Positions 3,957 to 39,463 of a DNA stretch of 40,169 nt are shown here, piece after piece; the stretch's first letter is position 1; each line of letters opens with the position of its first letter. Origin of the DNA: Turicibacter sp. GTDB taxonomy: Bacteria > Bacillota_I > Bacilli_A > MOL361 > Turicibacteraceae. The stretch spans positions 1 to 40,169 of the forward strand of contig WRGF01000212.1 of NCBI GenBank assembly GCA_009787345.1, read 5' to 3'. The position numbers and the translations under genes are program-made. Under the pieces are notes generated by a model. That model made no database searches and had not been told where the DNA came from. It saw only the letters and a list, made by a program, of their open reading frames with translations.

Positions 3957-3968
3957 GGGGTGCGGCCA

Positions 3969-11034: not shown

Positions 11035-11058
11035 TTATTATAGTGAGGAGGTGATTTT

Positions 11059-12705: not shown

Positions 12706-12727
12706 TATAATTTTTGTGGTAAATCTG

Positions 12728-12759: not shown

Positions 12760-12903
12760 GCATTATTGAGGAATTTATGTTAAAATTCAGAGAGAGTATC
12801 CTAAACCGAGGCGGTTAAACATGTCTCTAAAAAAATACATTGCGAATTGGATTTAATTCGGGTAGTTTGGGTATCAAAACACTCGAATGTGATGCCGATG
12901 TAA

Positions 12904-13104: not shown

Positions 13105-14304
<1,200 letters not shown>

Positions 14305-14655: not shown

Positions 14656-16812
14656 ATGTCCAAAAAGACAAAATCTCTTTTGCTTGCAGTATTTGCCCTG
14701 GCGGCATTATTTTTTCGGACGGGCCTTATCGAAGCCAGCCCGGGGAGTACCCATGAAAAATCACGGATTATCAATGTGGTAATGGATGACTCCTGGTCGA
14801 TGGTCATTGGCGGGGAAATCAGTATGCCGGGAACCAATGGCACCCCTTTGACACGCTGGGCCCAGGCACGGTACTCGCTGATGGTGCTTGCGGGGATGTT
14901 AGGTGAAAATGACACCCTCAATATTTATTACCTCAACGATTGGAGCCATAGCAGGAGCCGGCAGCCCATTACGATTTTAGGGGCTTCACCGGCGCAGGAG
15001 CGGATTGATTCGGTCCGTTCGTACATTCCCTTTAGCGGCGGCACACCTGTGGATGCCCTAAAAGCAGCGGCCAGCGACTTAAAGTCAGCCAATGCAGATG
15101 GGCTGTACCTGGTCATCATTTCCGATGGGAAGTTTGACAATGGGGGAAGGGCCCAGGAGCTGGTCGATGAAATTCGCGGGAGCGCCCCACAAAACCAAGA
15201 GGTTATTTTCCTAGGGATTGGGGATGATGCGCCTAAGGTTGAAGGCGGGTTTAGTGCCAGCGACCATGGGAATGAAATCCTGGACCAAATCGTCCACATC
15301 GGGAACCTCATTTTTGGCCGCCTCAAACTGCCGGAAGGTTTCATTGAAAACCAGTCGTTTGACACCGGCGATGTGGGGATGGGGCGCTTGATTGTCTTTG
15401 CCCAGGGCGAGGGGGTACGGATTAACGGGCTGACCAATAATGGTACCTTGATTTCCCCGATCCAAAAAACAGTGTTGCCCACACCCGAGCCTAAGGAAGC
15501 TGCCCGCCATTTGGCAAATGACCCGTCCTTGGCTGATATTTTGACCGATGCCCAATTATCGGGCGCCATTGCCGAGTTCACCAACATCGAACCGGGACAA
15601 GTTTCCTTGGATATCGAAAATGCCACCCAAGTCAGCTTTTACTACGAGCCGGACTTCGAGGTAGGCCTTCAACTGACCCATCTCAAAACGGGTGAGGTGT
15701 TCAATTCCCAAATCCAGGACCATCCGCTCATTGCCGGGGATTACCTCGTTGAATTTGGCCCTGTGGACGCTTCAGGGAATTTCATCCGCTCCCCACTCCT
15801 TGGGAATGATGCTACGGAACCAGAGTTATTGGAAAGTACTTTTAGGGCAGGCGATTGGACGCAGTCCATGGTGGAAAGTGGCAGCGAGATCCACATTCCC
15901 GCCGGGCTCTTGCAAGTGGAGGTCAGGCAATTATTCCTGGATAGGTACGAAAAAGTCGTCAGCCTGCCAACGGATAGCGTCGGGTTTACCATCCTGGAGG
16001 GCTCGTTATTGATTAGCCCCATAGACAGCCCAACCTTCAATGTCCGCGACTTGGCGGATGCCCAGACATTCAGGTTAAGGATAAGCAACGAGGATGGCAG
16101 GGACCTGTCCCAAAGTGATTGGGATAACTTAGAAACCCCCATCATCACCAGCCCTCAAAATATTGGGCTCACTGCCCAAAAGACTTCCGAATTAGGGATT
16201 GTCGAAGTCACCGCCACTGCCCCCCACGGGAATATTTTCAGGGCGGACACCGGCGAGATTGCTTACAGCGTCAACGCCGTCATCGGCAAAGGGCAGGAAA
16301 ATGCCCGCTTCGGAGAGTTTGACGACAACTTCACCATCACCGACACCATCGGGGCAGGCGAACGCCTCACCCATTGGCTGAAAGGGAATTGGTGGATTCC
16401 AACCATCGCCCTCCTCGGCGGCACATGGGGAATCGCCAAGTTAAGGCAACCGAAGCTGCCACGAAAATTCGCAAGGAATGATGGGTTTATTGAATCGCCA
16501 AATGGTCAAAAAAGCCCGGTTAAATCAAAAATCAAGATTAAAAACAAATGGAAAAACATCCTTTGGCCATTCGCCCCCCAAGAAATCAGCTTTACCCCTT
16601 TTGAAGGCGGTGGGATGACACTATTGGCTACCAGTCCATCAAGGATGAAAAAACTTAAAATCAAAGAACACCAAAAATTTACCAGGAAAAAAGGTGAATG
16701 GAAAATTGGGGGAGGGGCTCCAGAACCCGATAAGGACGGAAGTCTTTTCATCTGGGTGGGGGACAAGATTATCAGGACAGAGGACGGGGAAATCCGTTCA
16801 AATACATTATAA
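14656..16812 (+). CDS. cassette A: exported von Willebrand A protein with C-terminal anchor
   Basis: The product is 718 residues from ATG 14656, which follows AAAGGAG and begins MSKKTKSLLL, a clear signal peptide ending near IEA-S. The vWA domain follows at once with a complete metal site: D44-x-S46-x-S48 (DDSWS), T130 (SGGTPV) and D157 (ISDG). A beta-rich middle region extends to about residue 575, then one membrane segment (~579-597, WWIPTIALLGGTWGI) and a basic ~115-residue tail. The predicted layout is metal-dependent ligand binding outside and tail inside. The tubulin-like gene starts 15 bases after its stop. vWA proteins are reported partners of bacterial Tubulin_2-type proteins. The copy B paralogue (27297) keeps all these features. 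The ligand is unknown. Confidence 0.88.
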   Translation: MSKKTKSLLLAVFALAALFFRTGLIEASPGSTHEKSRIINVVMDDSWSMVIGGEISMPGTNGTPLTRWAQARYSLMVLAGMLGENDTLNIYYLNDWSHSRSRQPITILGASPAQERIDSVRSYIPFSGGTPVDALKAAASDLKSANADGLYLVIISDGKFDNGGRAQELVDEIRGSAPQNQEVIFLGIGDDAPKVEGGFSASDHGNEILDQIVHIGNLIFGRLKLPEGFIENQSFDTGDVGMGRLIVFAQGEGVRINGLTNNGTLISPIQKTVLPTPEPKEAARHLANDPSLADILTDAQLSGAIAEFTNIEPGQVSLDIENATQVSFYYEPDFEVGLQLTHLKTGEVFNSQIQDHPLIAGDYLVEFGPVDASGNFIRSPLLGNDATEPELLESTFRAGDWTQSMVESGSEIHIPAGLLQVEVRQLFLDRYEKVVSLPTDSVGFTILEGSLLISPIDSPTFNVRDLADAQTFRLRISNEDGRDLSQSDWDNLETPIITSPQNIGLTAQKTSELGIVEVTATAPHGNIFRADTGEIAYSVNAVIGKGQENARFGEFDDNFTITDTIGAGERLTHWLKGNWWIPTIALLGGTWGIAKLRQPKLPRKFARNDGFIESPNGQKSPVKSKIKIKNKWKNILWPFAPQEISFTPFEGGGMTLLATSPSRMKKLKIKEHQKFTRKKGEWKIGGGAPEPDKDGSLFIWVGDKIIRTEDGEIRSNTL

Positions 16813-16827
16813 CAAGGAGTGATTCAA

Positions 16828-19800
16828 ATGGCAGTAGCGCCAACGTTGTTAGTAGGTTTAGGGGGGACGGGGTCGGATATTTTGAACCGCGTCAGCTCGC
16901 TCTTGAATGAGGAGCAAAAAAATAAAGTATCCTTTTGCATCTTGGATACGGATGTCAACGAATTGGCGGAAATCAAGGAAAAGAACCCGGACATCAACAT
17001 TATCCAGACGTCGGCCAATTCGACGGTGGGGGAGTACCTGTCGCTGGACCGCAATGCCCTTGACAACTGGTTCCCGGTCAACCAGATCTTAAACCGTAAA
17101 GCTTTGACGGAGGGTGCTGGCCAAGTACGGGCGATTTCTCGCCTGGCCTTTGACGCGGTGATTAAACGTGACGGGATGGAAGAACTTCACAACGCCGTTG
17201 ACAAGTTATTTAAATTAACCAACTCAGACAAGCAGCAGGCGCTTCGCGTCGTCATCGTATCGTCATTGGCGGGTGGAACGGGTTCAGGGATTTTGCTTCC
17301 CACAGCCCTTTACATTAAAAAATACCTAAAATCCAGGTTTCCCCAATTAAGTTGCATTACCCGTGGCTTTTTCATCCTTCCAGAAGTGTTCTTCGATGTC
17401 ATCAAAGGAAATGCTGAACGGGACAACCTGCGCTGCAACGCTTATGCAACCCTTCGGGAATTGGATGCCTTCTTGATGAAGGGGGACGGGTCTTTGGCGA
17501 AAAAATACCATGACCATGTGAAATTGTCCTTTCCTAAGTCCAACTCCACCCATTACGAGGAAATCAACGAAATGCCCTATGATTATTGCTTCTTGTTTGA
17601 CTCTGTCAACATCGATGGGAAAACCATGTCCTCCTTCCCCCAATACAAGGAACATGCGGCGAACTGTATTTATGCCCAAAGCATCGGCCCGATGAATAAG
17701 CGTTCCAACTCCTCAGAGGACAATACCATCCGTGAAATTGCCAAGCAGGGTGGGCGAAACCGTTATGCAGCAGCCGGCTCCGCCGTCTTAAAATACCCAT
17801 GGCAAGACATTCGGGACTACATCGCATACCAATGGGCAAAAGAGTGTATTTCCAGCCAGTGGCTGCGGTTTGACAATGAACTCAACAACATCCGTAAAGC
17901 CAATATTGATTTAAGGGCAGCGGGTCATTACATTAAAGATACGGACCGGGGCGACGAGTATGTCCAGGTCATCGAAAGCCAAAAGGCAGCGGATATCCCC
18001 TTTGCGAAATTCATTGCCAACCAATTGGAAAAAAGGATGACCAAGGGGAAGTCTTGGGGACACAGGACCAGGATTATATCCGTGGGCTTGGGACTTTTGT
18101 GGATGGTCAACTGCTGAAAAAAGTCAACATCAGTGGCATCCAAAAACTTGAAGGCGGGCGCTCGGATTTAACGGAGGATTCCGATGGGGATGAGTACGCT
18201 GACTTCTTCAAAAAAATGGAACGCAATTACAAGGATATGCCAAGCCGTTCTCAAGAAGCGGGCAAGAGCATTGCCTACTCCTTGTTCAATTCGGAAAACC
18301 AGTCGCTGCTTCATGCTAAAAATACCCAAAATTTTGAAACGTACTTGCGGACACAGGATGGGAAGATGATGCACCCCAATACCATCCGTTTTATGGTTTA
18401 TAAGACGAAGGCGTTGTTGCTGGAAACCAAGAAGAAACTGGAATCAGAAATCCGTGAACATCATGACTTCTTAAAAGCACAAAAGCACAACCTGTTTGTT
18501 GAATTTGTGAACCCAAAAAGCGATGACAAGGACGAAAAGCCGACCGCTGATTTGGTGCGTGGAATCAACACCAAGAAAAAGAAGAACGCAGAAAAACTGT
18601 CTGACTTGAAGCAAAAATATGGGAAATACCTGGAATGGACAGAGGAGCTGTCCAAGGCTATCGTCCTTAACGAAGTGTATGGGGAAGCCAACAATTACCT
18701 GGATAAAATCGCCAATTCCTTTGAGCGGTTCTTCACCAGCTTTGGCCAAAACGTGGAACAGATTGAGTTTTTATCTTATGAATTAAAAAACCGTTACAGT
18801 AATGTCAAAGGCTCTGCCACCCATTACGTATGCGCAAGCCCTGAATGCATTGGCAAGATTTCGGACGAAGCGCCATATATGGGATCGCAGTTTGAACTGG
18901 ACAACAACCTGGTCGAAAAAATTTACCAACGGGTCCGGGAATATGCCATGTACAATGCCAAGGACAAGACCATGGATTTCTTCGACCGCCTTTTCACCCA
19001 GGATATTTTAGGGTATTTCAAGGAACAGGTCATGAGCCAATATGGCAGCCAGGTCAAGATGGACATCATTGATGCCCTGAAAAAAGAGGTTGAGCTGACC
19101 GAAGGCGAAAGAAACGTGGAAGCCCAGTACAAATACGCCCAAAAGCTTTTGGATTCATCCAAATTATTGGCAAAGCCTTTCCTTGAACTGCCAAGGATTG
19201 AAACCGTCCAGCCGATTATGGCCTGTACTTACAACAAGGCGCTGGAAAAAAGCAATGACCCGCACCGAACCGAATTTATTAGAAGGCAGCTGGATGATTA
19301 TGGGGCAGTCCCTACGGAAAATGAAGTGGATGAGCACACGATTTTATTTTATCAGGCGCTATACTCCATCAAGGCAAGCTCCCTTTCCAAGTTCGCCCCT
19401 CCCCTTAAAACCCAGACCAGCGAGCATATGGAAGGGTCATACAGCCGGGCTTACTGGGAACTTATCCATCAGTTGAAACCTGGAAAAAGTGCCAAGCCGA
19501 TTATTACGCCACACATCCATAAGGATTGGCATTTATTGAACCGGATGCCGGACATTGACGAGTCCTCCCAGACGAAAACCCAGATGGGTATTTATACAGC
19601 GGTCTTTAGGGGGCTTATTGAGGGCAAAATCGAGTTCATGCCATTAAATGATGGCATCAACGTTTACCGCTACTCTGGAAGCCATCCCATTGAGCTTAAA
19701 GTATCCAATGGGACGCCTTGCGACCATTTCTACGAAGTGTTTGATGCCTTCAGCTTGAATCAGGAACTGGTGGCAAATACCATGGAATCGGTCAATGACG

Positions 19801-20324
19801 ATTTTGAACGGACCAAAGTCGGCCACAAGGAGTTCTCCTTCAAGGAAACGCCTTTATGCAAGCGACTGGAAAAATTCATGCTCAACGAATTGGTGCAGGT
19901 GTATAAAGCCGAGGACTACCTGTTCCAAAAAGATGGTGAAGTGGTCAACTCGATTTTCGACATCCCATTATTTTACCGGATTTCCGGGCGCAGCATTGTG
20001 GAAGCCAAAGAAGGCATCGACATCCTAAGTGCCATTTTAACTGAAATCCGCCATGTGGTGGAGGAAAGCGAAACCGAGGAATACATCGACCAGGTGTTTG
20101 TCCAGTTCATCGTGTCCCAGTTTGAAATCTTTGAAGCCAACATTGCCGGCTATTACTTGGGCCATCTGAAAGAAACGTGGATGGACAGCTACTTGGATAC
20201 CGTCCTTCACACCATCGTGGAACACATCAAGGACAAGCCCGGCAACGAAGCCCGCAAATTCAGGCTCCATGTCGAGGACTACATTGAGAAACATAAGAAA
20301 CAGGCATTGGAGCACCGCAAATAG
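16828..20324 (+). pseudogene. cassette A: tubulin/FtsZ-superfamily protein, interrupted by one-base frameshift
   Basis: From ATG 16828 (8 bases after AAGGAG) the frame begins APTLLVGLGGTGSDILNRV and carries the tubulin-signature loop AGGTGSGI (GGTGSG at 149-154), typical of Tubulin_2-type proteins; it then stops at 18117. A second frame, open from 18054 to 20324, continues the same protein. The break is at an A6 run (18029-18034): one extra A gives EKKDDQGEVLGTQDQDY, matching DKRDDQGEKIGTKDQDY in intact copy B. The restored length is 1165 residues against 1168. Both halves remain otherwise open and well conserved, so the lesion is recent, switchable or a sequencing error. If real, the product is a ~430-residue GTPase head. 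The part after residue ~400 is helical and of unknown role. Confidence 0.85.
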
Positions 20325-20345
20325 TTATATGCTAGGAGGCAGGCC

Positions 20346-22319
20346 ATGCATACCGTCATGATGCTAAACAACGAAGCCTTGGACTTGTATCGGGACCACT
20401 CCTTCCTCTTTCACCCTTTTAAAAAAGATTTGGATATATGCCCCATCAACGAAGGCAAAGACCGCTTTGATGAGATATTCCCCGGACTTCAGGATATGAT
20501 TTACGGAAAAGGCCCCTGGAGGGCCTTTGTCTTTGTTGCAGATGATGTGAAGGATATCCCCGCCAAGGCAGATACCCTGAATCCATTTGACTTTTCTAAA
20601 GGCGTGCAGACATCCATCATGGAAGAGAGCAAGGAAAGCCTGATACGATTAACCCACCATTTAGGAGGGTTTCCGGCAAAAAATACTTACGAATTTGAAA
20701 AATACTATTATTACCTCAACCGGCAAGGGGAGGAAGTGCGGGTCGACGAACAGGACTTGATGATCCGCCACGAAGCCTTGGGGCACGGCGCACTCATACA
20801 GAGCAAATACGAGCAGACCCAGCTGGACGCCATCGAACAAGCCAGCCATTTGATTGATAAGTATGACGAGTTGGTGAACAAGCCCACGGAAATTTACCTA
20901 ATCAAGCTGCGGATGCCACACCGGCATTTGAGCCATTCAGGGAAATTGCAGCCTGCCACCACGCCTGAGAAGGATGATTTTTCAGCGGCGAACCATTACC
21001 CGCCCAACTGCCGGTTCCTCGCTTATGACTTGGACCGCATCACGAAATACAACCAAAGTTCCCAGTTTTTCCAGTTTTGGCTCAGTGTCCTCACCTTGGC
21101 CCACAACGAATTTACGTCCAGCATCTTCAAAGCCAACGAACTTTATAATTTCAAGTGCCAGTGGAACAAGGAAAAACTGGGGTCGCTCTTTAGCCAAAAA
21201 CTTTCCCAAAACGAGGCGCTCATCTGGCAGATTACCGAAACCCTGAACCGTCCCAAGGTGTCTGCCGATATTTATGGCGACGAGCTGATCGAGGAGGAAA
21301 AGGTGGCCGTCGGCTACAAGCGGATGGACGAAGCCAAAGCCAAAATCGACACGAAACAGTACAGCTATGCTAAGGAAGTACCTGCTTTGGACACTGCCAC
21401 ATTGGAAAGCCAGGTATCAGGCTCCCTTAAAATCCTGAGGCGCCAGTTGATGGAGCCTAGGCGCAAGGTGGCCGACACCGCTAAGGACACCCGCATGAGG
21501 TTCCGCCAATTTTTAGGCACCCGTTTCGAACTGGACGGGTTTCAAAAAGAAGATGTCAAAACCAAGCTTTCAAAGCTTCAGGAACAGGTTTTCAGCGAGA
21601 TGCACATCCATTATTTATACGATGATGGGTTCACCGAAGAGCTGGCCCAGACGAAAAATGAAGTTAGGGAAGATTTTCGGTACCGGTTATTCTCCACCAC
21701 GGTATGGGGGCTGATTGGGACTATCCTTGCCACCGTCATTTTAGCGTTTCTCATCATCTTCCTCAACGGGGACAACCCACAGGAAACGTTGCTAGAAGCC
21801 GCCATTACTTTAGCAGTCACCGGGCTTGCCATGGTGGGGGTCATTTTCCTTCACCGGCGGATGGCGCGGCAGCGGGTGGACGACTACAACCTCCACGTTA
21901 AAGAAGTGTACCAAAACATCGCCCACGAAACCAAGGCGGTCGAGGACCGGATGGAAGATATTTTCAATTATATGCGGTACCATCACATTCTAACTGGCAA
22001 GGATGAAACCATCGGGGAGAGCCAGCAACTGGATTTCAACCTGAAGCATTATTTGGCAAGGCTGAAACAGTTCAACGCACGGCTTGAAACCCTCGGGAAA
22101 GAACTCCAGCTGCCCATTAAAAACCACCCGGTTTACGAGCTATGCATGGATTTCGACCCACAGGTGCCAGTGGAGGAAAGCCCGCTGTTTTATCTGAATT
22201 CAAATAAAATCACCGAAGTCGCCATGCCAAACCAGGAATTTTCCCTGAAGCTTCCTTATGAGGGCATCGAAGGCATGGACATCCAAAAACTTAACGACTT
22301 ACGATTGGGGGGGCAATAG
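20346..22319 (+). CDS. cassette A: two-pass membrane protein of unknown family
   Basis: A 657-residue protein whose ATG at 20346 follows AGGAGG. It opens with a conserved cytosolic domain (HTVMMLNNEALDLY, FPGLQDMIYGKGPWRAFVF, LGGFPAKNTYEFEKYYYY), then a helical, coiled-coil-like region (~300-450), two close membrane segments (~452-472 and ~482-502) and a C-terminal helical/beta domain ending YEGIEGMDIQ. I do not recognise the family. Both copies place it between the tubulin-like gene and the large membrane protein, and it overlaps the next gene's GTG by one base, so it is probably an obligate part of the complex. With both ends cytosolic it could be the membrane receptor for the tubulin. Confidence 0.85.
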   Translation: MHTVMMLNNEALDLYRDHSFLFHPFKKDLDICPINEGKDRFDEIFPGLQDMIYGKGPWRAFVFVADDVKDIPAKADTLNPFDFSKGVQTSIMEESKESLIRLTHHLGGFPAKNTYEFEKYYYYLNRQGEEVRVDEQDLMIRHEALGHGALIQSKYEQTQLDAIEQASHLIDKYDELVNKPTEIYLIKLRMPHRHLSHSGKLQPATTPEKDDFSAANHYPPNCRFLAYDLDRITKYNQSSQFFQFWLSVLTLAHNEFTSSIFKANELYNFKCQWNKEKLGSLFSQKLSQNEALIWQITETLNRPKVSADIYGDELIEEEKVAVGYKRMDEAKAKIDTKQYSYAKEVPALDTATLESQVSGSLKILRRQLMEPRRKVADTAKDTRMRFRQFLGTRFELDGFQKEDVKTKLSKLQEQVFSEMHIHYLYDDGFTEELAQTKNEVREDFRYRLFSTTVWGLIGTILATVILAFLIIFLNGDNPQETLLEAAITLAVTGLAMVGVIFLHRRMARQRVDDYNLHVKEVYQNIAHETKAVEDRMEDIFNYMRYHHILTGKDETIGESQQLDFNLKHYLARLKQFNARLETLGKELQLPIKNHPVYELCMDFDPQVPVEESPLFYLNSNKITEVAMPNQEFSLKLPYEGIEGMDIQKLNDLRLGGQ

Positions 22320-25300
22320 TGCCAGGATTAACGCTACAGCAACAACTACTTGTATTCATCGTACTCTTTTCCCTTTTCTGCCTCGCCGCCATTAGCATTT
22401 GGGGGCTCAACCGCGAAAAACTGACCAGATACAGGCAACATTCCTTTATCCTGCCCACCTTTTTATTCTTGTTGGTTATGGTCATCGGCTATAGCATTTC
22501 CTACGAACGGCTATTGGAATTGACCCGGATATACCTGAACCTTCAGGACTTTGAGGGCGGGTTCATCGAGGGATTGGGGCTATTCATTGCCTTCTTTCCC
22601 TATTTGGTGTTCATGCTACAAAAGAGTGCGTTTTTGAAACGGCATCCTATTAGGACTTGGCTCGGTGTATTGTTTCTAATCACAACCCTTGCAGTAGGTG
22701 CCTTGTATGGCCCGGTTTATCGGCAGGCTGTCACGGGGACAAACCCACCTGCCAACCCGTACCTATATACCTTCTTGTCCATCGGTGAAGTCGTCCTAAG
22801 GGTGTTCGGGGCGGCTGCCGCCATTGTCGCAACCATTGCCCTCCTTCATGGGCTCATCTGTCTCATCCTATCCAAGTGGATTAAAAAAGGACCGGAGGGA
22901 CGCTACCCTGTCGGCTACAAAAGCTTCCTTCTGGATACCTTTTACCAAGGGGAAGAATGCCAGAAAAGCCCTGGTTATTTGGACTATGCCATCCGGGAGC
23001 AATACGGGGAAATCAAGAATTTCCTCCTTGAGCCTTTGCCTTATTTGAACAAGTCCAAGATGGGGATAATACTTCGGATGGTTTATTGGCTATCGAAGCC
23101 TTACCGGTTGATGATCATCCTATTCGGCGGGTTATTGGCGTGGCAGGTTGCATTTGTGGATATGGGCAACATACGTTTCTTGATGTTTGCTTTCGTTGCC
23201 ATCATCCTCGTAGGGGAAATATATGGCTTTTTAAGCGGCGATTCCAAAACTGGGGAAAAAATAGCAGAAATCCCAGACTCGGTTGAGAAAGATTTTGAGG
23301 CGTTTTATCGGGATTTGAAGCAGCATTTTGACCGGTATATGTTTCATGCCCGCCGGATTGACGGGATGGATGCCCGGGTGCCGCAGCCTGATGAGGAGAA
23401 TATCAACCTTAAAGGCTTGCCGGACGAGAAGTTTTCCCAAAAGGCGGCTCATGAGTTTTACCCGGAATATGAAACTTTTGCCCAGGAACTGAAGGACAGC
23501 CATAAGCTTCAAGACCAGATTTTGGGGAATTTTTTCAAGCAGATGCCAGACCTGGATTTGGGATATGCCCAGATGACCCGCAAAGTTTTTGATGGGGAAA
23601 GCACCCTTGTCCTCAACCCGTTCTTTATGGATTTGACGGACTATTTGGTAGTGCCGCTGCTCAAGCAGTTGATGGACAACCATAATGTGTTGGTCATTGG
23701 CGGGCGGGCATCCCAAGATGAGGAACTGAAAAACTGGATGCGTTCAACCATTTGGAAGATGATGGGGACGGACCAGTATTTCACCACGGATTACTTAGGG
23801 GAGGGCAATACCGCAGCTCCCCCGAATATCGGAATCCTCCGGGCCAACCAGGTGAACCATTTCAAGCTGATTGCCGGGCAGCGGGAGTTCTTGAAAAAAG
23901 TGGGGCTGATTATTTTGGTGGAGCCATCGAGGCAGATTACCATGAACCAGCTGTCCTTAAACATCATCGCCAATTATTGTTCGGATGAGCGGGTAGTGGT
24001 CGCCATGGACCGGCCTGTGGATGGGCTGTTGGACAACCTGAGCCACACCTTAAACGTGCGTATGAAGGAGGTCAGCGCCCTTCAACAAAATACCAATCCC
24101 CTGACCTATACCGTCGTTTACAATGCCAGCAACAAAAAGGACATGCACCAGCGGGTGATGGAAAATGTGTTCCGTTATCTCGGCGGCGGGACCGAAGTGT
24201 TTTCCTTGGCACAGCGCCACCATTTAGGGGAAGTCACTTGGCTTGGGGACAAGAAATTCCCCATTGTGGACATGAAATGGATTGCCGGCCAGTATTACCA
24301 AAGCATCGCCGATGTTGCCGGGCTTCCTCACACCCAGTATTTGGTGGAAAAAGAGCTGACCATGGACCCGTCCTTATGGAAGCTTAGGAAAAAGCCTCGG
24401 CGGGTCTTGGTGGTGGAGGACGAGTTCAACAACATGTTCGATATCCGCGAGCTTTACCGTTCCCGGGCGACCGAGATTTGCAGCCTGAACATCTTTAGCA
24501 GCAACTACATGATGCGGGACTATATGCTAAAAAATCCTGACCTTTTTTTGAAGGACAAGAAGGCGGTCCCCACCATTATCAATGACTTTGAATATTCCCC
24601 ACGCAACTTATTCATCAAAATCATGGTCAGGTTGCTAGTAGGCCCATTGAGGGAACTTGAAATCAGTGACGAGTTTTTAGCCATCCACCGTGAAGGGGAG
24701 GACATTGTCAAACTGTTAGGGGTACTCTCAAGGAGGTATCTCGACATTGGCCATCAAATCCACTTCACCCGTTATAAAAAAGACGAAGTCAATTATCAAA
24801 AAAACTGCTACGATGAGGTGTCTTATATCGCCTTGGGGGAACATGACTCAGACGTCCAAGAAGCCATCCGCCGCAAATTCTCGGCTTCCAACCTCATTGT
24901 GGAGGACTTGGCAAGGGAGAAAAACTACCTGGGGTCGTACCTTCATAACCAGGTTTACCAAATGATGCTCCCGACCCAGTTTTTGACCTATTCGGGGAAA
25001 TATTATCAGGTGGATTATGTCAACCAGGACTTTGACGTGCTCCTAAAACGAAGCAGCGAGTACATCCACCAACGGCTCTTTTACCGCCAAAAACGAAACT
25101 ACACCCTGGCGTTTTCCGATTCAAAAATCAAGTTGGAAGCGGACAAGAAAAATCCCCATTATAAAAACTGGGAAGTCGGCAGCTTCAAATTCCCAGAGGC
25201 AAGGGCCGGATTTGACCATCGCAACCGCACCCTTGGGGATTTGAAAATAACGGTGGAATCCGCCCGAATCGAAGTGCAGACGGAAGGGTATTACCAACTG

Positions 25301-27049
25301 AACGATTACGGGAACCTTGCCACTGGGATGTTCGTGAAACTGGACAGCGTCCCGAAACGGACCTATCTCCATAAAGATGTTTTAAGGCTGGAATTTGAGG
25401 GGCTTTCCCACCAGCAACGGGGCCTCTTGGCCCTCCTCCTTGGGGAATTATTCCAATCCACCATGCCCCAGACCTGCGATTTCATCGGGGTGGGAAGCCC
25501 GAATGCTAAGGTGCCCAAACCCTTAGAAGGTGCCCTATATAAAGTCGATTCGGTCTTTCAGCCCGATGATGAGGGCGTCTACATCATCGAAGACAGCGAA
25601 ATCGACCTTGGCATCATCTCAAGTACTGCCCGCAACATCAGCCGATTCCTGGAGATCATCACGGATTACCTCATTTGGTACCGGGAAGAGCAGGGTGTCC
25701 AGACAACTTCCCAAAACGAAGAAAAAGTTGAGGAAGCCATTTCCGAGGAACCAGTGGAAGCAGCAGAAATTCCAAAAGAAGAACCTGTTGCATTGAAACT
25801 ATTGGCAAAAGCCGAGGCTTCGAAACTGTTGGAAGATGCTAAGGTGGAAGAAGTCGAAGCAGACATGGGAGAATCTACGGGAACCACTGGGGAAGAACCA
25901 AGCGAAGCCAACGAACCGGACGAAATGGCTGATGGCATTGAGGAATCGCCCGAATCCACTGTGGAAGAGGAATTCGAAACCGAGGAACCAACGGAAACTG
26001 CTGAGGGCATGGAGGAGTTGCCGGAAGGCAGCAGGGAACCCGACGGAGAATCCGTGGAATCACTGGAAGATGGCGGTGAAGCCAAGCCCGAGGTTGAGGG
26101 GGTTCCAGAATCCGATGGCGAAGCAGAACCCGATGAAGAACCCACTGAATCACTGGAAGTTGATGGAGAAGCCGAACCCGAAGCTGAAGGGTCACAGGAA
26201 TCCGATGATGAAGTTGAGCCCAAAGTTGATGAGGCGCCGGAAGCCGATGTTGAAAATGATTTCGAAGTTGTTGGAGAAGCTGAACCCGAAATCGAGAGTT
26301 CATCAGAACCAAATGGGGAAGCTTTTGAATCTATGGAAGCTGTCGCAAGTGTTGAACCAGAAATTGAAGGGTCACCAGAAACCGATGGCGAAACAGGAAT
26401 TGAAGCATTGGAAGTATTGGAATCCGATGCAGAACCCGTCGTAACCTTAGAATCTGTAATCGAAGCCGAAGAAGTGTCTGAAGGGGATGCCGAAGCAGTT
26501 TCCGAAGGGGTGGAACCATCCGAATCCACGACCGGGGATGAACCACAGGATGAAAATCCAGCAGATGAAAAATTGCCAGTGGCTGATGGGGAGGAACCTG
26601 TCAGAAAAGGCTGGTGGGCTAAATCCCGTGAAAAGCGTGCGGCTAAAAAGGCTTTGAAGCCGAAGAAGGAAAAGCCGAGCAAGAAGAAGAAAACTAAAGA
26701 TACAGACGCACAAGAAACGGAAGAAACTGAAGTGTTAGGGGAAAAACCTAAAAAAAGCTGGATTCCTAAGTTTAAAAAGCGTGCACCTAAGTTGGAAGAA
26801 GCGGAAAATCTGGAAGGATTGGAAGCAGAAACGTTGGATGAAACTGTGGAAAAATCCCAGCAAGAGGGGCCGTCCGATGAGGAGTTCAACGAAGCCTTGA
26901 AAAAGTTCAATGACTTCTTGTTATTTGGCTCCTCGGATGAGGTGTATGGGAAAGAATTGCACCAATCAATCGAGGAACTTATCCAGTATTTGCAAAAGTT
27001 CCAATTTTCCAATAACAACATGACCACTGCAAGGAAGAAGGAACGATAA
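22319..27049 (+). CDS. cassette A: very large multi-pass membrane protein with acidic repeat tail
   Basis: A 1576-residue protein from GTG 22319, after a G-rich binding site. Hydrophobic segments fill the first ~310 residues (about six, beginning QQLLVFIVLFSLFCLAAISI). A long soluble core (~320-1115) shared with copy B contains VLVIGGRASQDE (457), MDRPVDGLLDNLSHT, IVDMKWIAGQYY, VVEDEFNNMFD, MLPTQFLTYSGKYYQVD and YIIEDSEIDLGIISS. I do not recognise the core. Residues ~1120-1427 are a Glu/Pro/Ser-rich imperfect repeat (EAEPEAEGS-ESD type); next comes a Lys-rich stretch (KKALKPKKEKPSKKKK), then a short conserved C-terminus (DFLLFGSSDEVYGKELHQSI) also present in copy B. The acidic part is therefore an expansion inside a conserved frame. 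Confidence 0.85.
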   Translation: MPGLTLQQQLLVFIVLFSLFCLAAISIWGLNREKLTRYRQHSFILPTFLFLLVMVIGYSISYERLLELTRIYLNLQDFEGGFIEGLGLFIAFFPYLVFMLQKSAFLKRHPIRTWLGVLFLITTLAVGALYGPVYRQAVTGTNPPANPYLYTFLSIGEVVLRVFGAAAAIVATIALLHGLICLILSKWIKKGPEGRYPVGYKSFLLDTFYQGEECQKSPGYLDYAIREQYGEIKNFLLEPLPYLNKSKMGIILRMVYWLSKPYRLMIILFGGLLAWQVAFVDMGNIRFLMFAFVAIILVGEIYGFLSGDSKTGEKIAEIPDSVEKDFEAFYRDLKQHFDRYMFHARRIDGMDARVPQPDEENINLKGLPDEKFSQKAAHEFYPEYETFAQELKDSHKLQDQILGNFFKQMPDLDLGYAQMTRKVFDGESTLVLNPFFMDLTDYLVVPLLKQLMDNHNVLVIGGRASQDEELKNWMRSTIWKMMGTDQYFTTDYLGEGNTAAPPNIGILRANQVNHFKLIAGQREFLKKVGLIILVEPSRQITMNQLSLNIIANYCSDERVVVAMDRPVDGLLDNLSHTLNVRMKEVSALQQNTNPLTYTVVYNASNKKDMHQRVMENVFRYLGGGTEVFSLAQRHHLGEVTWLGDKKFPIVDMKWIAGQYYQSIADVAGLPHTQYLVEKELTMDPSLWKLRKKPRRVLVVEDEFNNMFDIRELYRSRATEICSLNIFSSNYMMRDYMLKNPDLFLKDKKAVPTIINDFEYSPRNLFIKIMVRLLVGPLRELEISDEFLAIHREGEDIVKLLGVLSRRYLDIGHQIHFTRYKKDEVNYQKNCYDEVSYIALGEHDSDVQEAIRRKFSASNLIVEDLAREKNYLGSYLHNQVYQMMLPTQFLTYSGKYYQVDYVNQDFDVLLKRSSEYIHQRLFYRQKRNYTLAFSDSKIKLEADKKNPHYKNWEVGSFKFPEARAGFDHRNRTLGDLKITVESARIEVQTEGYYQLNDYGNLATGMFVKLDSVPKRTYLHKDVLRLEFEGLSHQQRGLLALLLGELFQSTMPQTCDFIGVGSPNAKVPKPLEGALYKVDSVFQPDDEGVYIIEDSEIDLGIISSTARNISRFLEIITDYLIWYREEQGVQTTSQNEEKVEEAISEEPVEAAEIPKEEPVALKLLAKAEASKLLEDAKVEEVEADMGESTGTTGEEPSEANEPDEMADGIEESPESTVEEEFETEEPTETAEGMEELPEGSREPDGESVESLEDGGEAKPEVEGVPESDGEAEPDEEPTESLEVDGEAEPEAEGSQESDDEVEPKVDEAPEADVENDFEVVGEAEPEIESSSEPNGEAFESMEAVASVEPEIEGSPETDGETGIEALEVLESDAEPVVTLESVIEAEEVSEGDAEAVSEGVEPSESTTGDEPQDENPADEKLPVADGEEPVRKGWWAKSREKRAAKKALKPKKEKPSKKKKTKDTDAQETEETEVLGEKPKKSWIPKFKKRAPKLEEAENLEGLEAETLDETVEKSQQEGPSDEEFNEALKKFNDFLLFGSSDEVYGKELHQSIEELIQYLQKFQFSNNNMTTARKKER
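25960..26460 (+). repeat. imperfect acidic-protein-coding repeat
   Basis: Degenerate repeats built on GAAGCCGAACCC-like and GAATCCGATGG-like words encode (D/E)GEAEPE-EG--ESDGE units about 20-30 residues long. The stretch is strongly purine-biased on the plus strand, which also creates a long spurious ORF on the minus strand. Confidence 0.7.
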
Positions 27050-27057
27050 CCGAAAAC

Positions 27058-27090
27058 CCCAGGTAGCCTCGAGCTGAACCTGGGTTTTTT
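27058..27090 (+). terminator. intrinsic terminator ending cassette A
   Basis: CCCAGGT pairs with ACCTGGG around a 13-base loop, followed by six T residues, nine bases after the stop of the large membrane protein. It separates the two cassettes into distinct transcription units. Confidence 0.9.
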
Positions 27091-27210
27091 GGCTTTTTCC
27101 CGTGATTCCAACTGAACCTTGGAGTTTCCCGTTCAAAATAGGGAATAGTAGTAGCAGAAATCCACAAAATCCTTACGGCTTAAGGCTGATTTTTCCGTCT
27201 GGCGGGGTGA

Positions 27211-27240
27211 AAGTTTCGAAAAGCCTATATTTTCACTACT
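27211..27240. promoter_or_regulatory. inverted repeat upstream of cassette B
   Basis: GTGAAA...TTTCAC with 18 bases between, enclosing TTTCGAAA and a TATATT that could be a -10 element. It lies in the 247-base gap between cassettes, roughly 60 bp before the vWA start. No convincing -35 was found. Candidate only. Confidence 0.3.
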
Positions 27241-27296
27241 GATGATGGTAAAATTGAAGGAGAATTGTTGAAAAAGCGTAGAAAGTGGGGAAACCT

Positions 27297-29462
27297 ATGT
27301 TTAAGATAAAACGCATTTTGCTGATGCTTGGGATTGGAATGCTTGCTTTGGTGGTTTATGGAGGGAAAGTGGGGAACATTCAGGCACAGGGGACTGCCGC
27401 TCCCGATATTTCCCGGGCAATCCATGTGGTGATGGATGATTCCTGGTCCATGGTGATGGGAGGCGGCGTGCTAATGCCATCCACTGATGGGAACGCTCTG
27501 ACCAGGTGGGCGCAGGCACGTTATGCGCTGATGACATTGGCGGGGATGCTTGGTGAACATGATGAGCTGAATATTTACTATTTGAACGAATGGGGGCAAA
27601 ATGGGAATCAGGAACGCATCCATATCAGTGGGGCCGACCCTTCCCAGCAACGGGTGGAAACGGTGCGAAACCATATTCCCCATAGCGGCGGGACGCCGGT
27701 TTATGCGTTGCGGGCGGCAGCGACGGATTTAAGGGAAGAGGAAGCCGACGAACTTTATTTGCTGATAATATCAGATGGGCAGTTTGACGCAGGGGACATT
27801 GCCCAATCCGAAGTGGATGCCATCAACGAGGCGGCGCCTGAGAACCAACGGACGATTTTCCTCGGGATTGGCGACGATGCCCCGGACATTGAAGGGGGAT
27901 TTTGGGTACCCGATGGCGGAAATGAAATTTTAGACCAGATTGTGACGCTTGGTAACCACATCTTTGGAAGGCTAGAGCTTCCCAGTGGGCATTCCCAAAA
28001 CAACTCCTTTGATACAGGAAGCGTCGCCATCGACCGGTTGATTGTTTTTGCCCAAGGGGAAGGGGTGCGCATCAACAGCCTTGAAAATAATGGGATTACC
28101 ATGAGGCCTGGGGTGACGACAAATTTGCCGACACCCCGCCCCGAGGAAGCCGCGCGCCATCTCGCCAATAGCCCAGGCGTAAATGATATTCGGACGGACA
28201 ATCAACTGGCAGGGGCAATCGCCGAATTTACAGGGATTAATGCAGGTCAAGTGATTTTGGATATAGAAAATGCTAGCGAAGTCAGTTTTTATTTTGAACC
28301 GGCTTTTGAGATTGGCCTCCAGCTGACCCATCTGGCTACGGGGGAAATCTTTAATTCCATGAGCCCGACTCCGCTAATTGCCGGGGAGTACCAAGTGGAA
28401 TTTGGGCCTATGGATTCGGAGGGCAACTTTATCCGTTCGCCCCTTTTGGGCAACGACCGTGAAGAACCCGAACTGTTGGAAAGCACCTTCTGGACGGCGG
28501 GCTGGTCGAAGGAGATGGTGGAAAATGGCAGCCGGGTAAACATCCCCTCAGGGCTTTTGCAGGTGCAAATCCGGCAGGCTTATTTGGACCGGTTTGAAAA
28601 GACGGTCAGCCTGCCAACCGATAGCGAAGGCTTTCAGATTTTTGAAGGGGCGCTGACCATCCAGCCACTGGGCAACCCGGCATTTGATGTGCGGGACCTT
28701 GCGCAGGGGCAGTCCTTTCAAGTCGCCATCACCAATCAGGATGGCACGGCGCTGACACGGGAAAACTGGGATAACCTGACTGCCTTGACCGTTTCCAGCC
28801 CTAAGGATATCCAGCTGGATATTGAAAAAACCGCTGAAGTGGGGATTGCTGAAATTACGGCATCCGCCTTTCATGGGAATATTTTCAGGACTGCCACCGA
28901 TGACATCCCTTATGAAGTCACCGCCCTGTTGACCAATCAGGAGGGGGAAGCCCGCTTTGGGACGATGGCGGAAACGTTCCACATCCAAGATACCCTGACG
29001 TTTTGGGAGCATTTTTGGCACTGGCTGCAAAACAACTGGTTGCTGGCACTACTAGGGATTTTAGTCCTGATTTGGTTGATTGCCAAGCTGCGCCAAAAGC
29101 GCTTGCCCAAAATAAAGCCGTCCCAGTCCAGTTTCTCCACCAACCTTTATGGGTCGGATAAAATCCAAATCAAATCCACCTACACCCCCCATAAGTGGAA
29201 AAACATGCTAAATGCTTTTGCCCCGCAAACGGCGGCTTATCGGCCATGGCCGGGTGGGAATACGTTCCAATTGGTAGCGACAGGAACCAACCGGTTATGG
29301 GTCAAAAATGGGAAAACCTTTTGCCGGGACAACACACGTTGGGAAGTCAACGGGCAGATGTGCCAGTTAAACGATAAAGACAAAAAATTCTACGTCAGCA
29401 AAAATGACCAGATCAAATACACAGATACGGTGAAAGAACGGATTTACATCAATACACTTTAG
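27297..29462 (+). CDS. cassette B: exported von Willebrand A protein with C-terminal anchor
   Basis: A 721-residue paralogue of the cassette A protein at 14656, from ATG 27297 after GTGGGG (an in-frame GTG lies 12 bases earlier). Signal peptide: FKIKRILLMLGIGMLALVV, probably cut near IQA-Q. The metal site is complete: DDSWS at 47-51, SGGTPV and ISDG. The middle region, single membrane segment (NNWLLALLGILVLIWLIAKL) and tail (KWKNMLNAFAPQ) line up with copy A from end to end. The tubulin-like gene follows after a 14-base gap. Strong similarity across the whole length shows that the cassette was duplicated as a unit; whether the two sense different ligands is unknown. Confidence 0.88.
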   Translation: MFKIKRILLMLGIGMLALVVYGGKVGNIQAQGTAAPDISRAIHVVMDDSWSMVMGGGVLMPSTDGNALTRWAQARYALMTLAGMLGEHDELNIYYLNEWGQNGNQERIHISGADPSQQRVETVRNHIPHSGGTPVYALRAAATDLREEEADELYLLIISDGQFDAGDIAQSEVDAINEAAPENQRTIFLGIGDDAPDIEGGFWVPDGGNEILDQIVTLGNHIFGRLELPSGHSQNNSFDTGSVAIDRLIVFAQGEGVRINSLENNGITMRPGVTTNLPTPRPEEAARHLANSPGVNDIRTDNQLAGAIAEFTGINAGQVILDIENASEVSFYFEPAFEIGLQLTHLATGEIFNSMSPTPLIAGEYQVEFGPMDSEGNFIRSPLLGNDREEPELLESTFWTAGWSKEMVENGSRVNIPSGLLQVQIRQAYLDRFEKTVSLPTDSEGFQIFEGALTIQPLGNPAFDVRDLAQGQSFQVAITNQDGTALTRENWDNLTALTVSSPKDIQLDIEKTAEVGIAEITASAFHGNIFRTATDDIPYEVTALLTNQEGEARFGTMAETFHIQDTLTFWEHFWHWLQNNWLLALLGILVLIWLIAKLRQKRLPKIKPSQSSFSTNLYGSDKIQIKSTYTPHKWKNMLNAFAPQTAAYRPWPGGNTFQLVATGTNRLWVKNGKTFCRDNTRWEVNGQMCQLNDKDKKFYVSKNDQIKYTDTVKERIYINTL

Positions 29463-29476
29463 AGGAGTGAGCCATT

Positions 29477-32983: not shown

Positions 32984-33010
32984 CATCACTTAAACAAACA
33001 GGGGGTAGCC

Positions 33011-34972: not shown

Positions 34973-34974
34973 CC

Positions 34975-37900
34975 GTGCAAGAGCAATCCATACAACGCCA
35001 ACTGATGATTTTCCTTGTCATCTTCATCTTGTTTTGCCTGTCGGTGATGGCCATTTGGTCGTTGAACCATGAAAAAAGCCAGCGCTACAAACAGCACCGC
35101 TTCCTCCACCCCACCTTTTTGTTCATTTTTGGGTTTTCTGCCCTGTACAGCCGTATCTTCACTGCCCTAATGGAAAATGCCCAACAGCTTTTGGACTTGC
35201 CGCCCGGTCATGACCTGAACTTTTACCTGACCATCTTTTTGGCATTCGCGCCCTATTTATTGTTCATCGGCATGAAGCTGGTCTACCTGCGCCCGAAAAA
35301 TCCCATCAAAGGCTTCCTTGCCTTCACCTTTACCTCCCTTTTAATGGCGGGATTATTGGTTTTCCCCCTGCTTAATATGTTCCGAAACATCCCGGCAACT
35401 GCTGGCAATCCCTACTTATTTACCGGTCTGAGCCTGCTCGCTTCCCTGTTTTTATTCTTGCTGACGGTCATCTTCGGCAAATCCCATCAAGGGAGCTATC
35501 CCGCAGGCTACAAAAACTTTATTTTAGACCGTTTTTACGAGCCTTGGGAAAATGCTGATGAGCCGGGTATTTGGAACTATTACTTGAAGGAACCCTTTGG
35601 CGAGTTCGGGAATATCCTTCTGGACCCGCTCCCTTATGGCAATTTGGGCGGCCTTGAAAATGCCATCTACTGGTTGGTCAAACCGTACCGCCTGTTGACC
35701 ATTGCCTTCGGGGTGCTCATTGCCTACACCATCGCCTTTGACAACATGGATTTCATCCGCTTCCACATGTTTTCCTTTATCGCCGTCCTGTCCATCGGGG
35801 AAGTTTATGGCTTTTTAAGCGGTGACACCGTGCCTGTGGATGATGGGGTGAAAAACGATGCTGAAGCCATCCTTGATTTTGAAAAATTTCATGAAGGGCT
35901 ATCCGATAAATTTAAGGAGTACACCTTCCATGAAGCCATTCAAATGGAGGGGACGGGGGAGCATGAATCCAAAGACGTTGAAGTATTTTTGCAGGGGTTA
36001 AGGGAAAGCGAGCCGATTTTGGCCAATTATTTCAGCCAGCTGGGGGAGTTTGACTTGGGGTATGCCAAAATGAGCCGCAAAATCTATGGCGGGCAGAGCA
36101 CCCTCGTCTTGAACCCGTTCTTTCGGGATTTGAGCCCTTACCTCCTGTTGCCCCTGACCAAGCAACTTTTGGATTCCAAGAACGTGTTGGTTATCGGCGG
36201 GCGGGCTTCCCAAGACGAGGCCCTCAATGAATGGCTTCGGGAATTGGTGTGGAAAATCATGGGGACCGACCAGTATTTTGAAACGGGGTTTTTGGAGGAG
36301 AACCAGGAGCGAAAGCCCCACATCGGGATTTTACGGGCCAATGACATCCATGATTTCAACCTGGTTTCCAGGCAACGGGAGTTTTTGTCCAAGGTGGAAT
36401 TTATCCTCATGGTGGAACCGTCCCGCCAAGTGACCACAAACCAGGTGCCACTTAATATTATCGCCGGATACTGCTCCCCCAAAAAAACCGTCCTTGCCAT
36501 GGACCGCCCGGTGGATGGGCTGTTGGATAATTTAAGCCACACCATGGCTGTGCGCCTGCAAGAAGTGAGCGCCCTTCAGCAAACCACCGAGCCCAAAACC
36601 TTCATCCATATTTTTGATGGGAATGCCAAGGACATGCACCAACAGATTTTGCCCCATATTTCCCGGTATTTGGGAAGCGGGACCGCTGTTTTCTCCATGG
36701 CCCAGAAATTCAGCTTGGGGAAGGTGGACTGGGTCAGCGACAAGAATTTCCCGGTGGTGGACATGAAATGGATTGCCGGGCAGTATTATAAAAACATCGC
36801 CAAGTATGCCGGAAAGCCCCAATCCCAGTTCCTGGTGGAAAACCAGTTGCAGCCGGACACCGCCCTTTGGGACCTGGCCTGCGAGGAAAACCGGGTGCTG
36901 GTCATCGAGGACGAGTTCAATAATATGTTCGACCTAGTGGGGCTTTTCAGTACCCGCGCCCAAAACCTGTGCAGCCTTAACGTCATCAGCGGCAATTACC
37001 TCATGCGGGATTACATGCTGAAAAACAGCCAGGTATTTTATGGCGACAAAAAGGCCATCCCGACGCTGATCAACGACTTTGTGTATTCCCGAAGGAACCT
37101 GTTGTTCAAGCTGATGATGCAACTGTCCGCCGGGAAGGTGAGGGAGTCCAACATCAAGCAGGATTTGGAAGCCCTTGGCGGGGAATCCCATGATGCCATC
37201 GAAACGCTTTATGCCCTTGCAAGGGATTACCTCCCTGCTAACGACACCCTGGAATTTCAGCGGGAATACTTGGATGAAATCAATCTGAAACAGCACCGCT
37301 ATGAAAAAATAGGGTACATTGTAATGCCCCTTCCTAGCCAACAGGGAGAAATCAAGCAGCCCTTCACGAAAAAATTCTCCCTGTCGTATTTGATTGTGGA
37401 GGACATGGCCCATGGGGTGGATTACGTTGGCTCCATGCTTTATAACCAGGTGTACCAGCAGATGCTGCCGACCCAGTTCATCACGTATTCCGGGAAATAT
37501 TATCAGGTGGACCAGGTGAACCGGGACTTGAATGTGATGTTGAAACGAAGCAGCGAGTACATCAACCAGCGGCTTTATTACCGTCAGGCGAGGGAGTATT
37601 TCGTCGGGGAATTGGCCGATAGCCAGCAACGGACGTTGGGTGACCTGAAGATTTCCATCGCCACCGCATCTGAGGTCAAGGTCAGGACGAAGGGCTACTA
37701 TCAGCTGAAGGACTTGGGCGACATGGCTTCGAGTCTGTTTGTCCAGTTGGGCTCCGAACCAGAAGTGCCATTGGCAGAAGTTTCGGAAGCCGGGTTGCCC
37801 GCAGCAGATGGGCGGGTGCCTGATAGGGTTTACCTCCACAAAGAAATCCTGCGCCTGGAATTTCCCGGCATGAAGGATGAACTCCGCTCCCTGTTCGTGG

Positions 37901-38484
37901 TGCTTTTGGGCGAATTGTTCAAGTCCACCATGCCCCAAACCCACGGTTATCTTGGGGTGGTTGCCCCGAACCTCTCTTATGGCGAACTTTTTGAAGGAGT
38001 TTGCTATAACCTCCAGACCACAGCCGAAGGCGACACCGGCATTTACATCATCGAGGACAGCGAAATCGACCTGGGAATGATTTCAAGCGTTTCCAGAAAT
38101 CTCAGTCGCCTGCTGGAAATTATCACCGACTACTTGATTTGGTATCTGGGGGAAAAGAATGCTCCTGCCACCAAGGTACTGGAAACACCGGCTGAAAGCC
38201 TCCCAGAAAATGATGGGGAGCCTGTTGAAGAAGAATCCCCAAAACCAAGGGGCTTCTTCCGCAAAAGAAAAGCTGTTATAGAAGCCCCGCCCCAGATGGA
38301 AAAAGCACCCATCCCAAATCCCTTTGACCATCAATTCAGCGACTACCTTCTATTCGGTCATTCCGAGGAAGAGCATGGGGCAGCATTGAACCAAAACATA
38401 AAAGATTTAGTCACGTATTTGCAGCAGTTCCAATTTGAGGAAAACAACCTCACCTCCGCACGGGGGAAAAAAGAAGCCGGATAA
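34975..38484 (+). CDS. cassette B: large multi-pass membrane protein, short-tail form
   Basis: A 1169-residue protein from GTG 34975, after GGAGGGG. It has the N-terminal membrane region (QLMIFLVIFILFCLSVMAIW onward) and the same soluble core as copy A: VLVIGGRASQDE (404), MDRPVDGLLDNLSHT, VVDMKWIAGQYY, VIEDEFNNMFD, MLPTQFITYSGKYYQVD and YIIEDSEIDLGMISS. Where copy A has ~300 acidic residues, this protein has about 45 (SLPENDGEPVEEESP then PRGFFRKRK) before the shared end DYLLFGHSEEEHG. This shows that the core and C-terminal motif are the essential parts. No known domain was recognised. The region from VLVIGGR to ILMVEPSRQ looks like alternating beta strands and helices and could be an NTPase-like fold, but no clear Walker A is present. 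Confidence 0.85.
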   Translation: MQEQSIQRQLMIFLVIFILFCLSVMAIWSLNHEKSQRYKQHRFLHPTFLFIFGFSALYSRIFTALMENAQQLLDLPPGHDLNFYLTIFLAFAPYLLFIGMKLVYLRPKNPIKGFLAFTFTSLLMAGLLVFPLLNMFRNIPATAGNPYLFTGLSLLASLFLFLLTVIFGKSHQGSYPAGYKNFILDRFYEPWENADEPGIWNYYLKEPFGEFGNILLDPLPYGNLGGLENAIYWLVKPYRLLTIAFGVLIAYTIAFDNMDFIRFHMFSFIAVLSIGEVYGFLSGDTVPVDDGVKNDAEAILDFEKFHEGLSDKFKEYTFHEAIQMEGTGEHESKDVEVFLQGLRESEPILANYFSQLGEFDLGYAKMSRKIYGGQSTLVLNPFFRDLSPYLLLPLTKQLLDSKNVLVIGGRASQDEALNEWLRELVWKIMGTDQYFETGFLEENQERKPHIGILRANDIHDFNLVSRQREFLSKVEFILMVEPSRQVTTNQVPLNIIAGYCSPKKTVLAMDRPVDGLLDNLSHTMAVRLQEVSALQQTTEPKTFIHIFDGNAKDMHQQILPHISRYLGSGTAVFSMAQKFSLGKVDWVSDKNFPVVDMKWIAGQYYKNIAKYAGKPQSQFLVENQLQPDTALWDLACEENRVLVIEDEFNNMFDLVGLFSTRAQNLCSLNVISGNYLMRDYMLKNSQVFYGDKKAIPTLINDFVYSRRNLLFKLMMQLSAGKVRESNIKQDLEALGGESHDAIETLYALARDYLPANDTLEFQREYLDEINLKQHRYEKIGYIVMPLPSQQGEIKQPFTKKFSLSYLIVEDMAHGVDYVGSMLYNQVYQQMLPTQFITYSGKYYQVDQVNRDLNVMLKRSSEYINQRLYYRQAREYFVGELADSQQRTLGDLKISIATASEVKVRTKGYYQLKDLGDMASSLFVQLGSEPEVPLAEVSEAGLPAADGRVPDRVYLHKEILRLEFPGMKDELRSLFVVLLGELFKSTMPQTHGYLGVVAPNLSYGELFEGVCYNLQTTAEGDTGIYIIEDSEIDLGMISSVSRNLSRLLEIITDYLIWYLGEKNAPATKVLETPAESLPENDGEPVEEESPKPRGFFRKRKAVIEAPPQMEKAPIPNPFDHQFSDYLLFGHSEEEHGAALNQNIKDLVTYLQQFQFEENNLTSARGKKEAG

Positions 38485-39310: not shown

Positions 39311-39463
39311 TCAATCAGTTAGTAAAATCTCGGTGTTAGTAGGAGTTTCGATGACCCGTGGTCTTACCCAGTCATCATCACTTAAAGGGTTAATCCCTAC
39401 GATGAGTACCATGATAAATACACTTGAAAAAATTCGTAACGCAAACAGTTTGTTTTGCTTCAT
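39311..39463 (-). CDS. second exported signalling-peptide precursor
   Basis: A 50-residue ORF on the minus strand. Lys2 and Lys5 precede a hydrophobic stretch (LRIFSSVFIMVLIVGI), then a polar tail NPLSDDDWVRPRVIETPTN ending TEILLTD. Its ATG overlaps the stop of the upstream TPR regulator as ATGA, exactly as for the 40-residue gene at 8909-9031, and a GGGAG-like site lies just upstream. The two peptides share the pattern hydrophobic stretch, GI(T)NP, two or three Asp, aromatic residue, then a variable end. This suggests one pheromone family with different specificities. The active peptide is probably from the variable end, which is inference. Confidence 0.72.
   Translation of the reverse strand: MKQNKLFALRIFSSVFIMVLIVGINPLSDDDWVRPRVIETPTNTEILLTD

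Follow-up and report, generated by a model that had tools for sequence, protein, structure and literature searches.

What does a cell make of two neighbouring copies of a gene set that joins a tubulin-type GTPase to an exported vWA protein and two membrane proteins? The question is raised by the window analysed here, contig C212, a stretch of 40,169 bases with 47% guanine and cytosine content taken from a 3.1-Mb draft genome in 221 contigs. The window carries two tandem cassettes, at 14656–27049 and 27297–38484, both ordered as a vWA protein, a Tubulin_2 protein, a two-transmembrane (two-TM) protein and a large multi-TM protein. This four-gene order recurs in other genomes and is a real conserved module. 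The reading favoured below, held tentatively and with somewhat less than even confidence, is that each cassette encodes an envelope complex that passes a signal from the vWA protein outside to variable outputs inside.

The four-gene module and its proteins

The genes of the two cassettes are listed below, with the two-TM protein named mem and the large protein named big.

14656..16812, + strand: vWA1, exported protein of 718 amino acids with a vWA domain bearing a metal ion-dependent adhesion site (MIDAS), a beta-rich ectodomain, a C-terminal membrane anchor and a basic inner tail
16828..18117, + strand: N-terminal part of tub1, Tubulin_2 GTPase domain; the frame breaks near 18025 at a run of six A
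18054..20324, + strand: C-terminal part of tub1, coiled-coil/helical, in a different frame from the N-terminal part
20346..22319, + strand: mem1, two-TM protein of 657 amino acids with an alpha/beta N-terminal domain and a long coiled coil around the TM hairpin
22319..27049, + strand: big1, 1576 amino acids, with a multi-TM N-terminus, a predicted MrfA/DUF1998-like degenerate superfamily 2 (SF2) helicase fold (modelled on copy 2) and a Glu-rich tail
27297..29462, + strand: vWA2, 721 amino acids
29477..32983, + strand: tub2, intact Tubulin_2 protein of 1168 amino acids
33011..34972, + strand: mem2, 653 amino acids; AlphaFold2 model with a predicted local distance difference test score (pLDDT) of 79
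34975..38484, + strand: big2, 1169 amino acids, with six or seven TM segments followed by a predicted degenerate MrfA-like helicase and MZB-like region; without a peptidase domain

vWA1 probably starts with the ATG at position 14656, which has a purine-rich ribosome-binding site upstream. The tandem duplication of a four-gene module that an initial annotation of this DNA had proposed is borne out by the open reading frames, their order and the homology of all four pairs. The further statement that the pairs align over nearly their full length holds for homology but not for size, since big1 and big2 are unequal (1576 against 1169 amino acids); the surplus of big1 is a Glu-rich acidic tail of about 390 residues that is absent from big2.

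A tubulin-anchored scan of genome contigs returned 30 loci, mostly from Clostridia, with further loci from Treponema, Erysipelotrichaceae and metagenome-assembled genomes labelled Proteobacteria. The modules of these relatives are single copy, and the order of vWA, tubulin, mem and big genes is held wherever the contig is long enough, the exception being L038, where genes three and four were not recognised downstream. The third gene of L087 was assigned by position only. A search with the large protein was positive in 2 of 392 genomes of the window’s phylum (G000 and G281) and in 8 of the 299 genomes in a sample of the family Lachnospiraceae, and all eight of the latter carry the four-gene module. 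These surveys were used to check whether the membrane proteins usually occur without the tubulin and vWA genes, and every examined match adjoined a vWA gene, a tubulin gene and the third gene. Co-occurrence of the four genes, for which a survey of Bacilli had been suggested, therefore holds, but the orthologues lie mainly in Clostridia and a survey limited to Bacilli would mislead. No Tubulin_2 protein was found in the seven same-family genomes searched, and no relatives were found among viral contigs or in a genome-contig scan that used a two-row alignment of the large protein.

Profile searches identify the second protein as a tubulin in both copies, as anticipated: Tubulin_2 (PF13809) is matched with E 1e-62 and 2e-60, a Pfam match to PF13809 (E 3e-59) spans residues 7-339, and the translation contains the GTP-binding glycine loop AGGTGSG. 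For the vWA protein the same kind of check gave a divided answer. Pfam is silent on window copy 2, but it reports a vWA match in 8 of 29 alignment members (best E 1.5e-4), and a profile comparison with another vWA-like protein gives the same assignment (E 7.5e-10). The MIDAS residues D51, S53, S55, T137 and D164 do not vary among 29 sequences. By hydropathy the protein has a signal peptide, one C-terminal membrane helix, which is clear in copy 2 but less distinct in copy 1, and a basic inner tail. The tubulin has no TM segment, and the topology agrees with the earlier placement of the vWA domain outside and the tubulin GTPase inside the cell.

Searches of the two membrane proteins against Pfam and NCBIfam gave sub-threshold noise only, and a PDB sequence search with profiles of the vWA, two-TM, large and tubulin proteins gave nothing usable. 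The AlphaFold2 model of mem has an alpha/beta N-terminal domain, a TM hairpin at residues 457–501 and long coiled coils. The model of big has a mean pLDDT of 72, with values mostly of 80–95 in residues 361–720 and 820–1065. When the big2 model was compared with the PDB by Foldseek, the DUF1998 helicase MrfA came first (6znp, E 6e-18, probability 1.00; alignment over about 770 columns), followed by 6znq (E 3.5e-15) and then by Brr2 and Hel308.

The catalytic motifs of such helicases are missing from big. The P-loop site, a beta-loop-alpha element, lacks GK[ST] in the members and reads NPF[YF]xDL in most of them, and the motif II site, placed by eye, is EPS in the consensus of 25 rows. The positions of motifs II and VI were set by eye against the corresponding features of MrfA. 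Pfam lists no MZB match among the 25 large-protein members, so the helicase fold rests on structure prediction. The prediction for big is thus an SF2 helicase fold of MrfA/DUF1998 type that is anchored in the membrane and has no catalytic motifs, and not an active helicase.

Duplication, the tub1 frameshift and the absent peptidase domain

Protein identity between the copies is 54% for the vWA protein, 80% and 60% for the N- and C-terminal parts of the tubulin, 42% for the two-TM protein and 46% over about 1,200 residues for the large protein. Because the nucleotide identity of the cassettes is mostly 65-72%, the duplication is old. Both copies have been under constraint, with ratios of nonsynonymous to synonymous substitution rates (dN/dS) of about 0.08–0.16 where computable (dS is near saturation). 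In trees of the tubulin and of the large protein (built with FastTree only, the frameshifted tub1 being entered with X at the break), the two window copies group together on a long stem as sisters (support 100). Second cassettes are absent from the flanks retrieved for all other loci; the duplication is restricted to the window lineage. The gene tgt lies upstream of both cassettes in the window. In five genomes of genus g3, from the same family, tgt is directly followed by yajC, so either the window lineage gained the cassettes or its sisters lost them.

A tubulin of about 1165 residues had been expected in each cassette. This is the case for tub2, but tub1 (16828–20324), as assembled, is split into two overlapping frames by a single-base frameshift at a run of six A near 18025 (window 18000-18060). 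Of the columns without variation among 27 orthologues, tub1 and tub2 each show changes at 10 of 129 before the break; behind it, 15 of 57 are changed in tub1 and 14 of 57 in tub2. Since tub1 past the break is as conserved as tub2, the frameshift is recent, bypassed or an assembly error. Assembly of the 221-contig draft may have introduced it; a fresh mutation or slippage, possibly transcriptional, could also account for it. Programmed frameshifting was rejected as the default explanation for tub1: the full-length orthologues are single-frame, and the site has no canonical -1 heptamer in register.

A second departure from the relatives lies at the end of the large protein. Twenty-one orthologues end in CDFC...C..C followed by HE[LM]TH...EGM, which by its residue pattern is a putative zinc finger joined to an active site like that of metallopeptidases (HExTH...E), and in L006/L031, L030 and L085 this zinc-finger metallopeptidase is a separate next gene. 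Both window copies stop at a short linker that aligns with YLxFG...TxAR of the relatives, directly before the zinc finger. A profile of the peptidase domain found nothing in the window genome (best E 0.74). The simplest history is that the peptidase domain was lost before the duplication. A DA1-like peptidase (PF12315) was considered because of the layout of zinc finger and HExxH but gave no match over the cut-off, and the name is not used here.

The broken tub1 and a peptidase domain found nowhere in the genome are what would be expected of a decaying relic. This explanation is nonetheless quite improbable, given that all other frames are open, that dN/dS is low in the copies, that tub1 has kept the conservation of tub2 behind a frameshift, and that this frameshift may itself be an assembly error.

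The flanks of the two cassettes contain several further features. Between queA and tgt, which are adjacent in the five g3 genomes, the window has a segment (9028-14304) with a regulator, a small protein and an FtsX-like permease (11059-12705). The regulator, a helix-turn-helix/tetratricopeptide-repeat (HTH-TPR) protein (9028-10287, - strand), is homologous to a TPR-type fragment (39460-40167, - strand; 32% identity, E 2e-37) that runs off the contig end. This same-strand pair flanks the two-cassette island and may represent regulators of the island or marks of an inserted block. The other contig edge (1-5090) holds a repeat-rich surface-type protein and then, at 2520-5090, an apparent MBOAT acyltransferase with an AlgX/DltD-like partner, all named by eye from the translation alone.

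Neighbouring modules in relatives and possible functions

Several relatives carry additional genes beside the four-gene module. In L021, L022, L025, L036 and L039, an FtsK-type ATPase of about 1,160 amino acids lies directly 3' of the large-protein gene; its best NCBIfam matches are EccCa (5e-21) and EssC (1e-19), then EccCb, and hydropathy shows no TM segment in it. N-terminal fragments of this ATPase are found in L026, L028 and L083. Behind the ATPase lie helical hairpin proteins of about 100 amino acids with weak WXG100 similarity (E 0.02-0.09), of which two are fused to further C-terminal domains, and a Gln_amidase toxin domain adjoins at one locus. At six other loci the fifth gene encodes an exported transglutaminase-like protein, which is also present, more distantly, at L087. 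In L056, L057, L058, L059 and L060, the hairpins behind a soluble EccC/EssC-like ATPase belong to a family with the consensus YAVNEEGV...LGPH and have toxin-type domains linked to them; this is possibly an undescribed type VII-like cargo family.

The ATPase loci suggest that the module could serve as membrane core for a type VII-like exporter, on which the EccC/EssC-like ATPase docks and sends out hairpin-tagged effectors, with the window copies having lost or outsourced the motor. Besides the position of the ATPase gene and the fused and toxin-linked hairpins, this is favoured by the restriction of strong hairpin matches to the genomes with an intact ATPase (the same 5 of 22) and by the lack of a second ATPase of EssC length in the ATPase-positive genomes, G493 excepted. 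It is made rather unlikely by the majority of modules, the window’s among them, that have neither ATPase nor hairpins, and by the ATPase itself, which has no TM segment and which PADLOC also relates to defence ATPases such as mad8; the weakness of the hairpins’ similarity to WXG100 counts against it as well. For the ATPase the window genome gave only weak FtsK-type matches, outside the cassettes, and no member of the hairpin family was found in it, canonical WXG100 proteins not having been searched genome-wide.

The envelope complex favoured here would be organised as follows. The vWA protein, with its signal peptide and intact MIDAS, would be hung outside the cell from the membrane by its one C-terminal helix. 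The long FtsZl1/Tubulin_2 GTPase would assemble inside, at the face of the membrane, where the two-TM coiled-coil protein would hold it. The scaffold, anchored in the membrane and built on the degenerate MrfA/DUF1998 SF2-helicase fold, would be the largest of the subunits. An outside-in relay could then run from vWA contact or metal state to the GTPase state of the tubulin and on to the scaffold. Different lineages would attach differing outputs to the four-protein core, such as proteolysis, export or wall modification, with the zinc-finger metallopeptidase, the EccC/EssC-like ATPase with its hairpin cargo and the transglutaminase-like protein as alternative output parts. The window genome would have acquired or kept a core lacking the peptidase output, and a tandem duplication would have followed.

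Gene order and its conservation, the domains and the topology by hydropathy are observed; complex formation, the inward direction of the signal and the outputs are inferred. Several observations weigh against this proposal. The mem model has no fold match in the PDB below E 0.02, only generic long-helix matches, and big superposes on MrfA with moderate TM-scores (query 0.35, target 0.52-0.55). The first cassette may be partly defective. Searches of the window genome found neither the peptidase nor the module of ATPase and hairpins, so the function of the window cassettes is not readable from output modules. The best guess for them is a sensing or anchoring complex in two paralogous forms. A bolder version, in which the module is the envelope core of an undescribed export or effector machine, is doubtful; there the tubulin GTPase and a dead membrane helicase would replace a secretion-channel scaffold, the peptidase, EccC-type ATPase and transglutaminase-like parts would be interchangeable outputs, and the window lineage would have two paralogous cores without the peptidase.

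Comparison with known systems

The GAP1-N2 conflict systems (Kaur et al., 2020, PMC7159879) combine zinc-ribbon GTPases, GAP1, two tubulins and a YtkA-fused vWA protein in one operon, and share with the window the pairing of tubulin and vWA genes in Firmicutes and a vWA domain outside the membrane. A system of this exact type is ruled out for the window cassettes by gene content, as neither cassette nor the flanks contain a zinc-ribbon TRAFAC GTPase or GAP1. Two genomes of the same class (L010 and L011) have another tubulin/vWA operon with zinc-ribbon GTPase-like proteins, which resembles the GAP1-N2 systems and has a set of genes unlike that of the module. More broadly, the module could be a conflict or cell-suicide surveillance system in which the vWA protein would be the sensor, tubulin assembly the amplifier and the peptidase or linked proteins the effectors. 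Such a role would fit the sparse, patchy distribution of the module, the TIR-domain-like proteins and the TrkA-like or ion-channel-like membrane proteins (all named by eye) near it in L028, L030, L056, L059, L061 and L084, and the tubulin family held in common with L010 and L011. It is unlikely, since the GTPase and GAP1 genes are missing, the two-TM protein has no detectable relation to the gene after the tubulin in L010, and PADLOC models gave no matches for the four window proteins.

With the MrfA/YprA DUF1998 helicases (PDB 6znp), big shares a predicted fold that starts with the first RecA-like domain and includes the DUF1998/MZB-like region. It differs in being membrane-anchored and in lacking helicase motifs I (GKT), II (DExH) and VI; the window copies also lack the four-cysteine cluster, and the relatives end in a zinc finger and metallopeptidase instead of a nuclease. 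A survey of YprA-family helicases (PMC12458937) makes no mention of tubulin, vWA or transmembrane members. A subset of the relatives resembles type VII secretion systems in having an EccC/EssC-like ATPase and small helical hairpins to which toxin domains are linked, but the relatives’ ATPase has no TM segment or recognised FHA domain, no YukD-like or EssB-like gene was noticed, and tubulin is part of none of the subtypes T7SSa-j (Garrett et al., 2024, PMC11217815).

The tubulin/vWA core belongs, by its Tubulin_2 domain and neighbouring MIDAS vWA protein, to the FtsZl1/vWA systems noticed in 2010 by Makarova and Koonin (PMC2875224), and is thus already known. For these systems a general role of the FtsZl1 filament in membrane remodelling or vesicle formation was proposed. 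The family to which the tubulin belongs and the presence of membrane proteins in the operon agree with this, but the idea is based on family analogy and the pseudohelicase, peptidase, ATPase and transglutaminase-like partners give no hint of lipid work, which makes it very unlikely here. Links to a pseudohelicase, peptidase or ATPase were not found in the parts of the main text of PMC2875224 that were covered, and the open-licence full texts searched yielded neither a paper joining these parts to tubulin and vWA nor an experimental study of FtsZl1/vWA systems.

Like the window cassettes, the FtsZl1/vWA systems combine a Tubulin_2 N-terminal domain and long helical C-terminus with an adjacent vWA protein and lineage-specific membrane partners. 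The partners named in PMC2875224 are OmpA-like proteins, a kinase and a GTPase, and the window cassettes have none of these; the initial annotation was right to set the two membrane proteins, neither OmpA-like nor a GTPase, outside the described sets. To this family the analysis adds a fixed four-gene core whose order is kept across several phyla, a predicted fold for its largest subunit and a view of its exchangeable output modules. A vague guess of membrane remodelling gives way to specific candidates, namely a peptidase, an ATPase for export together with its candidate cargo, and a duplication in nature that lacks the peptidase. A helicase fold serving as a membrane scaffold beside a tubulin would, if true, surprise specialists of both fields.

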